The notes under the pieces were generated by a model. It was not told the DNA's origin, did no database searches, and worked only from the letters and a program-made list of their open reading frames with translations. Both the position numbers and the translations under genes were made by a program. A stretch of DNA of 36,338 nt from Bacillota bacterium (lineage in GTDB: Bacteria > Bacillota > Dethiobacteria > DTU022), in NCBI GenBank assembly GCA_016874655.1, contig VGTO01000009.1, forward strand, positions 1 to 36,338. Direction: 5' to 3'. Shown here piece after piece: positions 2,293 through 8,482 of the stretch (position 1 is its first letter; each line of letters begins with the position of its first letter).

Positions 2293-2348
2293 TCTTCATG
2301 ACATCTGCTTATTCTCTTCACAGGATCTTCATAGTTTAGTTCTATAAT
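2293..2348 (+). promoter_or_regulatory. Promoter with 11-bp phased direct repeats
   Basis: A TATAAT at 2343-2348 serves the small secreted protein gene. Upstream, TCTTCA occurs at 2293, 2315 and 2326, and a degenerate TCTGCT at 2304, so four units keep an exact 11-bp period. The last unit ends 11 bp before the -10 and covers the -35 position. This is the geometry of PhoB/OmpR-family activator sites (known for pho boxes). A response regulator of that family is encoded 0.5 kb downstream, so autoregulation is a reasonable inference. Confidence 0.55.
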
Positions 2349-2382: not shown

Positions 2383-2700
2383 ATGTCTAAAAAAATATTA
2401 GTAACAACTTTGCTTGCTGTTTTGGCTCTAACCCTGATTGTTCCTGTCGCAGCCCTGGCCCAGGAGAGCGATCCGGAACTGGAATCACTTTTTGAGCAGA
2501 TGCATCAGTTGCGGGTTAAGATTGTTGAGCGGCAAGTCGAGCTCGGTAACCTGACCGAAGAAGAGGGCGCTACAATAATTGAGAGAATCCAGGAGCGCTT
2601 TCAGCTGATGTTGGAGAAAGGCTTCGGCGGCGGTTATGGCATGTTTGGCCGTTTTGGTGAAGGTGGTCCCGGGAGAGGTTTTGGTCACTGCTGGAGGTAG
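2383..2700 (+). CDS. Small secreted DUF2680-like protein
   Basis: A 105-residue protein. Residues 1-26 form a signal peptide: MSKK, then a hydrophobic core, then a likely cleavage near ALA/QE. The mature part is a charged helix pair with the phrase GNLTEEEGATIIERIQERF and a Gly-rich, Phe-rich tail ending HCWR. This fits the DUF2680 group of small exported Firmicutes proteins, whose function is unknown. ATG 2383 is chosen because GGGAG lies eight bases upstream; the longer frame from 2347 has its start inside the promoter. The gene has its own promoter with phased repeats and a terminator at 2750. The two-component genes that follow may receive read-through, so a role as envelope stress sensor or target of that system is possible but unproven. 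Confidence 0.65.
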   Translation: MSKKILVTTLLAVLALTLIVPVAALAQESDPELESLFEQMHQLRVKIVERQVELGNLTEEEGATIIERIQERFQLMLEKGFGGGYGMFGRFGEGGPGRGFGHCWR

Positions 2701-2840: not shown

Positions 2841-3536
2841 TTGGGTAAAGAAAAGATTCTGGTTGTAGATGACGAAAAAAAAATAGCTGCCGTGCTTAAA
2901 GCCTATCTGGAGCAGGACGGGTTTGCGGTTATCACCGCAACTGACGGGCTGGAAGCTTTGAAATTGGCCCGCCGGGAAGAACCTGACCTGATTATCCTCG
3001 ACCTGATGCTGCCTGGTTTAAGTGGTGAGGAAGTCTGCCATCGTTTGCGCCAGGAAGGTTCGAGGGTCCCGGTGATTATGCTGACGGCAAAAACTGCCAT
3101 AGAGGACCGGATTCACGGTCTTGGTATCGGAGCCGATGATTATGTGTTGAAGCCGTTTAGCCCGCAGGAAGTGTTGGCCAGGGTTAAAACGATTTTACGC
3201 CGCAGCGAACCCGAACCCGGATTACTAACCAACATCCTGGAACTGCTTGAAGGTCGGCTGAGGTTTGACCTGCTGTCTCACAGCCTGACCTGGGATGAGC
3301 AAAACATAGCACTGACGCCCACAGAATTTAATCTTCTCGCTTACCTGGCCCGCCGCCCGGGGCGGGTCTTTTCCCGGGCACAACTGACGGAAGCGCTCTT
3401 CGGTTATGATAGCTTTAGTGATGACCGGACGGTTGATGCTCATGTTAAAAATTTGCGCCAGAAGCTGCAGGCCGCAGGCGTTGAACCGGTGCTTAAAACT
3501 GTTTACGGGGTAGGTTACAAGTATGATGAACACTGA
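2841..3536 (+). CDS. OmpR/PhoB-family response regulator
   Basis: A 231-residue DNA-binding response regulator. The receiver domain covers about residues 4-120: acidic pair D10-D11, phosphoacceptor D54 in IILDLMLPG, the conserved Thr in VIMLTA and the Lys in VLKPF. A winged-helix output domain follows (about 135-230), with the usual LTPTEFNLL and closing TVYGVGYKY. Start: the frame is open from TTG 2787, but TTG 2841 has GGAG nine bases upstream and gives the normal family length. The last 14 bases overlap the histidine kinase gene, so the two form a translationally coupled pair. Its likely targets include the phased-repeat promoter at 2293-2348. Confidence 0.9.
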   Translation: MGKEKILVVDDEKKIAAVLKAYLEQDGFAVITATDGLEALKLARREEPDLIILDLMLPGLSGEEVCHRLRQEGSRVPVIMLTAKTAIEDRIHGLGIGADDYVLKPFSPQEVLARVKTILRRSEPEPGLLTNILELLEGRLRFDLLSHSLTWDEQNIALTPTEFNLLAYLARRPGRVFSRAQLTEALFGYDSFSDDRTVDAHVKNLRQKLQAAGVEPVLKTVYGVGYKYDEH

Positions 3537-4998
3537 TCTTATAAATAAAAAGCCGCTCTGGACCCGCCTGACGCTCTACTTTTTAGGGGTAGCCGCTGTG
3601 ACCCTCTTAATTTTTCAGCTGGTTTTTAACTACTCTCTGGAAAGGCATTTTATAACTTATGTCGCCGAACGCGAAGAGGCTCTCAACCGGCAGATCGTCG
3701 CCGCGGTTCTTGATTACTACGAAGAGAACGGTAGCTGGTCGGGGTTTCAGATGCCGCTGTTTCACATTGCTCTTAGCACCAACACCCGCCTGGTGCTGGC
3801 TGACGAAAGCGGCCGTTATATTGTTGATAGCGGTCAGGGCCGGCGCAGGCATTCAATGATGACTGGTGTTGGTGAGATCGATCTGGAAGAAGCGGCAGCT
3901 TATCACTACCAGTTGAACAGCGGGCAAGCCGAGGTAGGTAAGCTGATCATTGTGCATCGAACTGTGGAGAGAGGCACAGCCTGGCAGGAACAGGATTTTG
4001 TTTTTAAGCGGACAATCACCCGTTCTTTGTTAATGACTGGTATTTTGGCGGTCAGCGTGGCGCTGATCCTGGGAGTCATTTTTTCCCGCCGCCTCTCAAA
4101 GCCTTTAGAAGAGGTGGCCGATGCCGCCCTGGTGATCGCCCGTGGTGATTATAGCCACAAGCTGCCAACCTACGAAAACAGGGAGTTGGCGGAACTGTCG
4201 GCCAGTTTTAACCAGATGACCGGGCAGCTCCAGGAACTGGAGATGTTGCGTAAGCGCTCGGTAGCTGATCTGGCTCATGAACTGCGCACCCCCCTGACTA
4301 CCCTGCGCAGTTATGTTGAAGCAGTCAGGGACGGGGTACTTCCCGCTGACGAGCAGCATTTGAACATTTTAATGGAAGAGATTATGCACTTAAACCGGGT
4401 GGCAACTGATTTAGATGAACTGGCCAGGGCAGAGCGCACTGACAGCAACGGTCGGGAGCGGGAAAAAATTGAGTTAAACCGTTTTTTAAGTGACAAGGCC
4501 GCTTCTTTTAAACCTCTTTTTCAGGCGAAGACGATCGCTTTAAATCTTGAACTGCCGGATGAAAGGCTTCATGTTTTTCAGGATCCGGCTGTTTTAGGTA
4601 AAATTATCGGCAACCTGGTGGATAATGCTTACCGTTATACAGATGCCGGGGGAGTGGTTACTCTAGGTCTGCATAATGTGCCTGTTTTTAACCCGGTAGC
4701 GGTAGCGCCATTCGGGCCGGCTGCCACGCTGTCCGGCCCCGGTGAATCGCCGGATCCGAAAAAATTGCTGATGATCACGATCAGCGATAGCGGAATCGGC
4801 ATTGATCCCGATCAACTGCCCTATATCTTCGAGCGTTTTTTTCGCGTCGATCCGGCGAGGGAACGGGGCAACAAAGGCGGATCGGGCATCGGCCTGGCCC
4901 TGGTTCGGGAACTGGTTCGCTCAGCCGGAGGGCTGATCCAGGTGGCCAGCAGCCCGGGGACGGGCACCACTTTCTATCTTTACCTGCCAAAAGCCTAA
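3523..4998 (+). CDS. Sensor histidine kinase
   Basis: A 491-residue membrane kinase. A first membrane helix spans about residues 17-37, an extracytoplasmic sensing region of about 130 residues follows, and a second helix lies at about 168-187. Then come HAMP (about 190-240) and the dimerisation/phosphoacceptor helix with H252 in LAHELRTPLTT. The C-terminal ATPase domain has an N box (NLVDNAYRYT), a DSGIGI G1 box, an FERFFR F box and GGSGIGLALV. It phosphorylates the preceding response regulator. ATG 3523 and ATG 3526 are both possible starts. A short Pro/Gly-rich insertion (about residues 395-415) sits between the N and G1 boxes. The signal sensed is unknown; the neighbouring exported DUF2680 protein is a candidate partner. 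Confidence 0.9.
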   Translation: MMNTDLINKKPLWTRLTLYFLGVAAVTLLIFQLVFNYSLERHFITYVAEREEALNRQIVAAVLDYYEENGSWSGFQMPLFHIALSTNTRLVLADESGRYIVDSGQGRRRHSMMTGVGEIDLEEAAAYHYQLNSGQAEVGKLIIVHRTVERGTAWQEQDFVFKRTITRSLLMTGILAVSVALILGVIFSRRLSKPLEEVADAALVIARGDYSHKLPTYENRELAELSASFNQMTGQLQELEMLRKRSVADLAHELRTPLTTLRSYVEAVRDGVLPADEQHLNILMEEIMHLNRVATDLDELARAERTDSNGREREKIELNRFLSDKAASFKPLFQAKTIALNLELPDERLHVFQDPAVLGKIIGNLVDNAYRYTDAGGVVTLGLHNVPVFNPVAVAPFGPAATLSGPGESPDPKKLLMITISDSGIGIDPDQLPYIFERFFRVDPARERGNKGGSGIGLALVRELVRSAGGLIQVASSPGTGTTFYLYLPKA

Positions 4999-6025: not shown

Positions 6026-6050
6026 AGCGAGGACAATTAAATAGCTGATT

Positions 6051-6198
6051 TTCAGGTGTCTAAAGACTTAATAAGGGAAGCCGGTAAAAGTCCGGCGCGG
6101 TCCCGCCACTGTAAGTGGGAGGTGCTTCCTGAGGCCACTGGTTGCTCAACCGGGAAGGCAGGAGGCGCAGTGAACACGAGCCAGGAGACCTGCCTGAA
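6051..6198 (+). promoter_or_regulatory. Cobalamin riboswitch aptamer
   Basis: The class is recognised from its conserved blocks in order: GGTGTC, GGGAAGCCGGT near 6074, GCGGTCCCGCCACTGTAA (6097-6114), the GGCAGGAGGC block near 6157 and the B12 box AGCCAGGAGACCTGCC (6179-6194). TTCAGG (6051-6056) pairs with CCTGAA (6193-6198) as the closing P1 stem. In this family binding of adenosylcobalamin or a related cobalamin lowers expression of the genes downstream, here the B12 uptake and salvage genes. Confidence 0.96.
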
Positions 6199-6243
6199 GA
6201 CGCGCGCTTAACCCCTTCGGGTGAGAGGGTAAGGCGGGGTATT

Positions 6244-6375: not shown

Positions 6376-7359
6376 ATGATTGGAAAGAGATATTTAGTGT
6401 TGGTTGTTTTTTTAGCGGCAGTTCTTTTGGTTGGCGGCTGTGGCCAGACGGCTGTGCCGGAAGGTGAAGATGAGGCGGGCGATTTTATTCAGCCGGAAGA
6501 AGAGGGTCCGCTGGTGGTGACGGATCAAATGGGGCGGGAAGTTACCATCGATGGCATTCCGCAGCGTCTGGTCTCGCTCTCGCCGAGCAATACGGAGATT
6601 GCTTTTGCCTTAGGGCTGGCCGAGCGGATTGTGGGAGTAACCGAATACTGCAACTATCCTCCTGAAGCGCAGGAGAAGGAGCTGATCGGCGGTTTTGCCA
6701 CTCCCAACATTGAGCGGATTGTCGAGCTTGAGCCTGACCTGGTTCTCGCTTCAACAATCCACGAAGAGGTAGTTACCCAGTTTGAGGCTCTTGGCATACC
6801 GGTACTGGTGATCGAATCAGCTACGCTGGTAGAATTGTATACCAGTATTTCCCTGATGGCGGAACTGACCGGTGTAACCGGAGCGGGAGAGGCACTGATC
6901 GCTTCCATGCAGAGCCGGATCAATGCGATCGAGGAGCAGGTTGCCACAGTTCCTGAAGCGGAAAGGGTCAGCGTCTATTACGAGGTTTACTCCGACCCGC
7001 TAATGAGCGCCGGTAAGCAGACATTTATTAACGAAATAATAACCCTGGCCGGCGGCATCAATATTTTTGTTGATATTGATGAGAGTTACCCGCAAATCAG
7101 CGCCGAGGTGGTTGCCGAAAGACAGCCCCAGGTGATTCTCTATCCCGACTACCACGGCACGGCCGAATTGGTGCTTGAATCGATGGTTGATCGCCCAGGC
7201 TGGTCTAGCATTCCGGCGGTAGCAGAAAGTAGAGTTTATGCTGCTTCCGATGATGCTTTTGCCCGGCCTGGTCCGCGGGTGGTAGAGGCTGTGGAAGAGG
7301 CGGCCAGGCTTTTTTACCCGCAGTTATTCGACCAGCATGTATGCGATAGTTGTGAATGA
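6376..7359 (+). CDS. btuF: Cobalamin ABC transporter substrate-binding lipoprotein
   Basis: A 327-residue periplasmic-binding-protein type 2 lipoprotein. The signal sequence ends in LLVGGC, with the lipidated Cys at residue 22, so the protein is anchored outside the membrane. The mature part holds the usual phrases of iron-siderophore/B12 binding proteins: VTDQMGREVTIDGIPQRLVSLSPSNTEI split over residues 48-75, GLAERIVGVTEYC, and GGFATPNIERIVELEPDLVL. The cobalamin assignment rests on position as first gene behind the B12 riboswitch and ahead of cob genes. ATG 6376 has a GGAGATG ribosome binding site. A terminal CDSC pair near the C-terminus is unusual. Confidence 0.9.
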   Translation: MIGKRYLVLVVFLAAVLLVGGCGQTAVPEGEDEAGDFIQPEEEGPLVVTDQMGREVTIDGIPQRLVSLSPSNTEIAFALGLAERIVGVTEYCNYPPEAQEKELIGGFATPNIERIVELEPDLVLASTIHEEVVTQFEALGIPVLVIESATLVELYTSISLMAELTGVTGAGEALIASMQSRINAIEEQVATVPEAERVSVYYEVYSDPLMSAGKQTFINEIITLAGGINIFVDIDESYPQISAEVVAERQPQVILYPDYHGTAELVLESMVDRPGWSSIPAVAESRVYAASDDAFARPGPRVVEAVEEAARLFYPQLFDQHVCDSCE

Positions 7360-7390: not shown

Positions 7391-8482
7391 ATGACCGGCA
7401 GGTTAACAGGTAAAAGTATCCAGAGCAGAGGCACAAAGTTTACGCGGCCACTATTAATGGTTGTGTTGGTGCTGCTGCTCTTTTTTTCTGCTCTGTCAGC
7501 CATGATTTGGGGAGCCGTGACTATCGGCTGGAAGAATGTTTTTGCTATTCTTTTTGACACCCTGCCCTTCTACCAGTCGGAAACAGCTACCGGCATTGCA
7601 CCGGTTTATAAAGATATTCTGCTGCAGATTCGGGTGCCAAGGGTGCTTTTGGCAGCAGCGGTCGGCAGCTCGCTGGCTGTCTCCGGCGCTGTTTTTCAGG
7701 GTCTTTTTCGCAATCCGATGGCTGATCCTTATGTGATCGGGATCTCCTCGGGGGCTGCCTTAGGTGCAGTATTTGCCATGCTCGGCGGCTTCAGCCTGGC
7801 GGTAGGCGGTTTTGGTGCCGTGCCCCTCTTTGCCTTTTTCGGGGGTCTGGCAACTATACTGCTGGTCTACAGTATGGCCCGGGTTGGCCGGGCGGTGCCG
7901 GTAATGACTTTGCTGCTGGCTGGGATTGCGGTCAGCGCCTTTCTTTCGGCGCTGGTGTCGCTTTTAACTTACTTTGCCGGGGAGAAGCTGCATCAGGTAA
8001 TTTTCTGGCTGATGGGTGGGCTGGGCGGCGCCACCTGGCTGCAGGTTAGGGTGATGCTGCCTTATGCCTTTGTCGGCTATCTTGCAGTCAGTATTTTTTC
8101 CCGGGAGCTGAACGCTATGTTACTGGGTGAAGAGACAGCCAGCAACCTCGGGGTTGATACGGAAAAAGTAAAAAAAATTCTATTGGCCGGGGCTTCGCTG
8201 CTGGTGGCTGCAGCGGTTTCAACCAGCGGCATTATCGGTTTTATCGGGCTGGTGGTGCCTCATTTTGTCCGCCTGGTGGCCGGCCCCGATCACCGCTTTC
8301 TGATTCCGGCCTCCGCTCTGCTGGGTGGATCGCTGTTAATTGCCACCGACATGGTGGCCAGGGTGATTATTGCCCCGACAGAGCTGCCGGTGGGCATTAT
8401 TACCGCGCTGATTGGTGCGCCTACGTTTATGTACTTGTTGAAAAAAAGAAGGAAGCTGCGCTATTTCGGGGGAGGGGGATAA
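7391..8482 (+). CDS. btuC: Cobalamin ABC transporter permease
   Basis: A 363-residue FecCD/BtuC-type permease with about ten membrane helices. Family marks include the RVPRVLLAAAVGSSLAVSGA segment, the FRNPMADPYVIGISSGAALGA loop, the GFIGLVVPHFVRL coupling region and the TELPVGIITALIGAPTFMYL C-terminal helix. It forms the membrane channel for the btuF ligand and pairs with the ATPase encoded four bases downstream. ATG 7391 follows AGGCAGGGA. Iron-siderophore permeases share the same fold; the riboswitch and cob context decide for B12. Confidence 0.92.
   Translation: MTGRLTGKSIQSRGTKFTRPLLMVVLVLLLFFSALSAMIWGAVTIGWKNVFAILFDTLPFYQSETATGIAPVYKDILLQIRVPRVLLAAAVGSSLAVSGAVFQGLFRNPMADPYVIGISSGAALGAVFAMLGGFSLAVGGFGAVPLFAFFGGLATILLVYSMARVGRAVPVMTLLLAGIAVSAFLSALVSLLTYFAGEKLHQVIFWLMGGLGGATWLQVRVMLPYAFVGYLAVSIFSRELNAMLLGEETASNLGVDTEKVKKILLAGASLLVAAAVSTSGIIGFIGLVVPHFVRLVAGPDHRFLIPASALLGGSLLIATDMVARVIIAPTELPVGIITALIGAPTFMYLLKKRRKLRYFGGGG

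Follow-up and report, generated by a model that had tools for sequence, protein, structure and literature searches.

Organization of the DUF2680 locus

The stretch of DNA analyzed here, hereafter the window, comprises 36,338 nucleotides of a Bacillota bacterium, and all elements of the locus described below lie on its plus strand. A gene for a 105-amino-acid protein with a signal peptide (2383-2700) matches the DUF2680 family (Pfam PF10925, 5.5e-12). It is followed by an intrinsic terminator (2744-2778), a hairpin carrying a T run, with a fold of -29.3 kcal/mol and a z of -4.8 over positions 2735-2785, and then by a -10-like element recognized by eye (2787-2799), likely the own promoter of the next two genes. 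These encode a response regulator with a TTG start (2841-3536; Response_reg and Trans_reg_C domains) and a sensor histidine kinase (3523-4998; HAMP, HisKA, and HATPase_c domains). The initial annotation had reported an array of short repeats before the DUF2680 gene and a response regulator gene just downstream; the regulator is indeed there, 0.5 kb from the array, and belongs to the OmpR/PhoB family. Among the NCBIfam equivalogs shown for the regulator and the kinase, none lies above its cut-off, the nearest being PhoB and BaeS. The predicted structure of the kinase matches WalK, HK853, CpxA, and ZraS in the catalytic core, a match that bears no information on the signal.

How are these genes transcribed? 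Among the 14 operons of the order that contain the regulator, all have by eye a GC-rich hairpin in the place of the terminator, with a T run that is clear in 12 and weak in two (G031 and G064). A TTN(2-3)TTANAAT-like element follows the hairpin in 12 of the 13 regions compared, again by eye, the form in the window being shortened. Because a terminator and a likely second promoter intervene before the regulator gene, the array would drive DUF2680 first. We infer that it should do so strongly and that the regulator and kinase genes would receive read-through in addition to transcripts from their own promoter; any array-based autoregulation of the regulator would thus occur by read-through only.

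Farther along the window, a cobalamin riboswitch (6037-6211; Rfam RF00174, 115 bits) lies just upstream of genes that by eye encode a substrate-binding protein (6376-7359) and a FecCD-like permease (7391-8482).

Geometry of the repeat array

Positions 2293-2348 read TCTTCA TGACA TCTGCT TATTC TCTTCA CAGGA TCTTCA TAGTTTAGTTC TATAAT. The predicted operator (2293-2331, plus strand) consists of four half-sites, at 2293-2298, 2304-2309, 2315-2320, and 2326-2331, and the -10 hexamer TATAAT (2343-2348, plus strand) follows 11 bp past the end of the array. The four repeats starting at 2293, 2304, 2315, and 2326 with a strict 11-bp period, roughly one turn of the helix, match the sequence exactly as first described, and the array does end 11 bp before a TATAAT devoid of a -35 element: the -35 place, 17 bp upstream of TATAAT, is occupied by ACAGGA, which resembles TTGACA at only one of six positions and therefore does not qualify. 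A promoter scan found no sigma-70 promoter at the array.

The motif TCTTCA-N5-TCTTCA occurs once in the window, where 0.01 occurrences are expected from shuffles, and twice in the 2.13-Mb genome. For comparisons within the order, we used a layout score composed of four TTCA elements, 11 bp, and TANNNT, with a maximum of 19 per region and the register chosen by score. The window array scores 17 of 19, a value reached by none of 500 dinucleotide shuffles. Using a weight matrix derived from relatives, with the window's own genome left out, position 2293 ranks first in the window at 49.4 bits, the next place scoring -0.7. Site 2 alone departs from TCTTCA, as TCTGCT, and this variation is conserved, with TCTGCA, TCTGCG, or TATGCA at site 2 in seven of the 13 other relatives. 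The G-bearing variant TCTGCA was also seen as site 4 in several arrays belonging to regulators with a serine in the recognition helix (see below).

Conservation within the order and beyond

Within a sample of 71 genomes of the order, DUF2680 is present in 17 and an ortholog of the regulator (E<=1e-70) in 14. All 14 regulator genomes also have DUF2680 (Fisher 3e-12), and in each the two genes occupy one locus. The initial annotation had proposed looking for the repeats before homologous DUF2680 genes and had regarded a lack of conservation as fatal to its reading. The four-site array with its 11-bp period, 11-bp gap, and TANNNT box is found in all 14, and in each the score was attained by 0 of 500 shuffles; in G021, array and regulator are on physically separate contigs, the array being on a short one (C5) together with a truncated DUF2680 copy. 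Summed over the 14 regions, the combination of period 11 and gap 11 scores 243 of 266, versus 203-225 for period 11 with other gaps and 149-168 for all remaining periods in the range 7 to 16. The remaining DUF2680 genomes (G027, G032, and G035) carry different, mostly longer forms of the protein. No array was found before their four DUF2680 genes lacking an adjacent orthologous regulator (two of them in G035), the test of G027 having used a misplaced start. The module is patchy, since a genome of the same genus, G001, has neither DUF2680 nor the regulator ortholog.

Does the array extend beyond the order? In a phylum sample of 398 genomes, a search detected DUF2680 in 140. We scanned 70 upstream regions, 30 from best-match loci and 40 from further matches picked mainly for lower match score, with the half-site TCTYCA and a significance level of p<=0.01; one of the 70 (L266) is apparently the same contig as L036. 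A significant array precedes DUF2680 in 39 of the 70 regions (37 in another run), versus 2 of 70 reverse complements and 8 of 172 upstream regions of other genes. At a score of at least 21, the corresponding counts are 23 of 70, 0 of 70, and 0 of 172. The mean score over the phylum regions again peaks at period 11 and gap 11 (18.4 versus about 15.1 for other periods), and about 31 of the 70 regions have no significant array. The array in a Dethiobacter sp. (L035) reads TCTTCA/TCTCCA/TCTACA/TTTACA, followed by 11 bp and TAAGAT. The array accompanies DUF2680 where the gene order differs: DUF2680 lies behind the kinase in L036, L278, and L280, and the L036 array contains one 12-bp step before 11 bp and TATACT. 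The locus of L034 contains no DUF2680, and there two sites, 11 bp, and TATACT stand directly before the regulator gene.

These comparisons bear on whether the repeats resemble one another by chance or are relics of shared ancestry without function. The repeats are short and T-rich, as chance would favor, but against these ideas stand the scores that peak at period 11 and gap 11 and the divergence of the flanks: the information per column is 0.21 bits in the upstream flank versus 1.34 and 1.39 bits in sites 3 and 4, with 0.77 and 0.90 bits in sites 1 and 2, figures that include two misanchored rows (G031 and G064). The layout scores in the order and the controls in the phylum refute both ideas, to which we attach practically no weight.

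Covariation of the recognition helix and the half-site

Which regulator binds the array? Many array-positive regions of the phylum have no two-component gene within the 1.5 or about 2.5 kb of flank retrieved, so another, distant regulator must serve those loci. In the window's genome, where 15 regulator matches were found (E<=1e-3), a genuine OmpR/PhoB-type site might likewise be bound chiefly by a regulator encoded elsewhere, or might repress. We consider this unlikely. The adjacent ortholog co-occurs with the array in 14 of 14 genomes and its recognition helix changes jointly with the half-site, both of which argue against a non-adjacent binder, and the position of the array over the missing -35 fits activation rather than repression.

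The recognition helix has the form DRTxDxHxKNLR. A helix row was available for 31 loci, 12 of which have Ala as the second x, six Val, eight Ser, and five Thr. Ser helices pair with TCTCCA and Ala or Val helices with TCTTCA. When position 4 of the half-site was left free in the scan, at least one C at that position is present at all eight Ser loci (20 of 32 sites), at none of the 12 Ala loci, at two of the six Val loci, and at three of the five Thr loci. Both Val loci with a C are poor registers, namely L036 with its 12-bp step and L034 with its two sites and no DUF2680. The five Thr loci, and four regions that lacked a helix row, gave no clear pattern in the scan. The Ser loci form one clade of the regulator tree with a support of 1.0, and they therefore represent one concerted change of regulator and array kept in eight genomes, not eight events. 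Because letter 4 of the half-site changes together with the helix of the adjacent regulator, this joint change points to that regulator as the binder. Such natural covariation also provides a convenient test case for DNA recognition by OmpR-type regulators.

Further targets of the array

The search for repeats elsewhere in the window's own genome, also proposed initially, turned up no second array. At up to three mismatches, TCTTCAYANNATCTTCAYA matches 17 places versus 12 for a reversed-pattern control, and three of the 17 are the array itself. Six of the other 14 places were examined and had no four-site array, four of the six lying inside long reading frames. With a match count near that of the control and no convincing second site among the places examined, we reject a large regulon in this genome.

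A second target does occur in relatives. Complete four-site arrays with 11 bp and a -10 element precede a gene whose membrane-protein product has a weak spermidine-synthase domain (L171, 1-1368, minus strand; L162, 582-1946, plus strand; and L172) in G047, G048, and probably G049, where the contig end cuts the gene off and the assignment follows the matching layout in G048. In G048, the gene is located immediately past the kinase end of the operon. Homologs of this target (E<=1e-40) are present in four of the 71 genomes, each of which belongs to the 14 that carry the regulator (chance 0.001). No array precedes the homologs in G003 and G031, and at this threshold the window's genome contains no homolog.

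Relation to the phosphate regulon

The layout had been called pho-box-like. That likeness holds for the geometry, in the period and in the gap, but does not extend to a phosphate box. A pho box stands in place of the -35, and a true one bound by the PhoP/PhoB of the pst system would share the geometry of the array; the best NCBIfam match of the adjacent regulator is moreover PhoB, at 234 bits under a cut-off of 296 bits. Nevertheless, the upstream pst regions of seven genomes with full pstS loci carry, by eye, a different tandem repeat of the TTTAAC type, and the best full-array score at pst regions is 4.7 bits, versus 44-72 bits for the arrays of DUF2680 and the second target (two further arrays, at 19 bits in G031 and 29 bits in G064, fall outside this range, both being misanchored in the matrix). 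The presence of the array tracks the adjacent regulator, whereas pstS was not found in six of the 14 genomes. Because a different repeat stands at the pst promoters in these genomes, we reject membership of the array in the Pho regulon and regard a phosphate box as very improbable. The TTTAAC-type repeat upstream of pstS (L205-L211, of which L207 is the window's genome), also tandem with an 11-bp unit, is itself likely the true pho box at those loci.

A predicted activator operator

The locus combines 11-bp direct repeats, a fixed distance to a -10 element without a -35, and a linked gene for an OmpR/PhoB-family regulator. The array is very probably a class II activator operator through which the adjacent regulator switches on DUF2680. 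The activator-site reading of the initial annotation is thus sustained by conservation, period, gap, co-occurrence of the regulator, and the joint change of helix and half-site. Each half-site would take up one molecule of the phosphorylated regulator, so that successive molecules follow one another head-to-tail at 11-bp intervals, occupy the position where a -35 would otherwise stand, and bring RNA polymerase to TATAAT. Binding, and activation rather than repression, would turn DUF2680 on, and the secreted protein may in turn influence the envelope or the kinase.

The array is ordinary in kind, and its comparative tie to an uncharacterized secreted family is uncommonly good. The promoter layout, shared across the phylum, would place DUF2680, a widespread secreted family, under two-component control. 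It also directs attention to the signal that activates the kinase and to the role of DUF2680 outside the cell.

Comparison with known systems

What might the DUF2680 protein do? The structural model, built on a three-sequence alignment, yields a hairpin only: a signal helix is followed by a predicted two-helix hairpin (residues 31-53 and 59-79, pLDDT about 92) and a Gly-rich tail, modeled with low confidence, that ends in GHCWR. The hairpin matches no PDB fold at E<=0.001. A profile search of solved structures placed ZraP (3lay) third with a nonsignificant E of 0.28, and the CpxP/Spy/ZraP (LTxxQ) family does not appear among the Pfam matches listed. The GHCW-like tail (window 2680-2697) contains a single Cys in most, not all, relatives, and may serve a metal or thiol function. 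We take YckD of B. subtilis to be the named DUF2680 protein. YckD is listed with unknown function, and YvmB, when tested on the yckD promoter, did not bind (PMC4992311). The available portions of the literature on YckD give no function, and those of the open-licence literature mention DUF2680 in passing only and contain no description of this promoter.

On the DNA side, the closest likenesses are the E. coli PhoB pho box and the M. tuberculosis PhoP repeats, which consist of tandem 11-bp units of seven conserved plus four positions, bound by the regulator head-to-tail, with tri- and tetra-repeats bound too (PMC4415409, PMC4832192); binding of this type to 11-bp repeats is the norm in the regulator family. 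The half-site TCTTCA(C/T)A differs from CTGTCAT of PhoB (PMC4415409) and TCACAGC of PhoP (PMC4832192), and the array is unlinked to phosphate genes.

On the protein side, CpxRA-CpxP and BaeSR-Spy pair an OmpR-type system with a small secreted helical protein as its strong target, an arrangement that the DUF2680 locus may resemble. ZraSR-ZraP also has a small secreted helical target, although ZraR is not OmpR-type. These are systems of enterobacteria without significant sequence match to DUF2680, which here occurs in a Gram-positive phylum. Since the profile and fold searches were nonsignificant, the likeness to CpxP and Spy rests on gene order and regulation as an analogy, not on homology. CpxP is strongly induced, is encoded beside cpxRA, and damps CpxA (PMC6737893). 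By this analogy we tentatively suggest, as a possibility well short of even chances, that DUF2680 is a Gram-positive counterpart of CpxP and Spy: a phylum-wide envelope-stress output, driven by an OmpR/PhoB-type regulator through the four-site 11+11 promoter, whose product may damp the kinase or guard secreted proteins.
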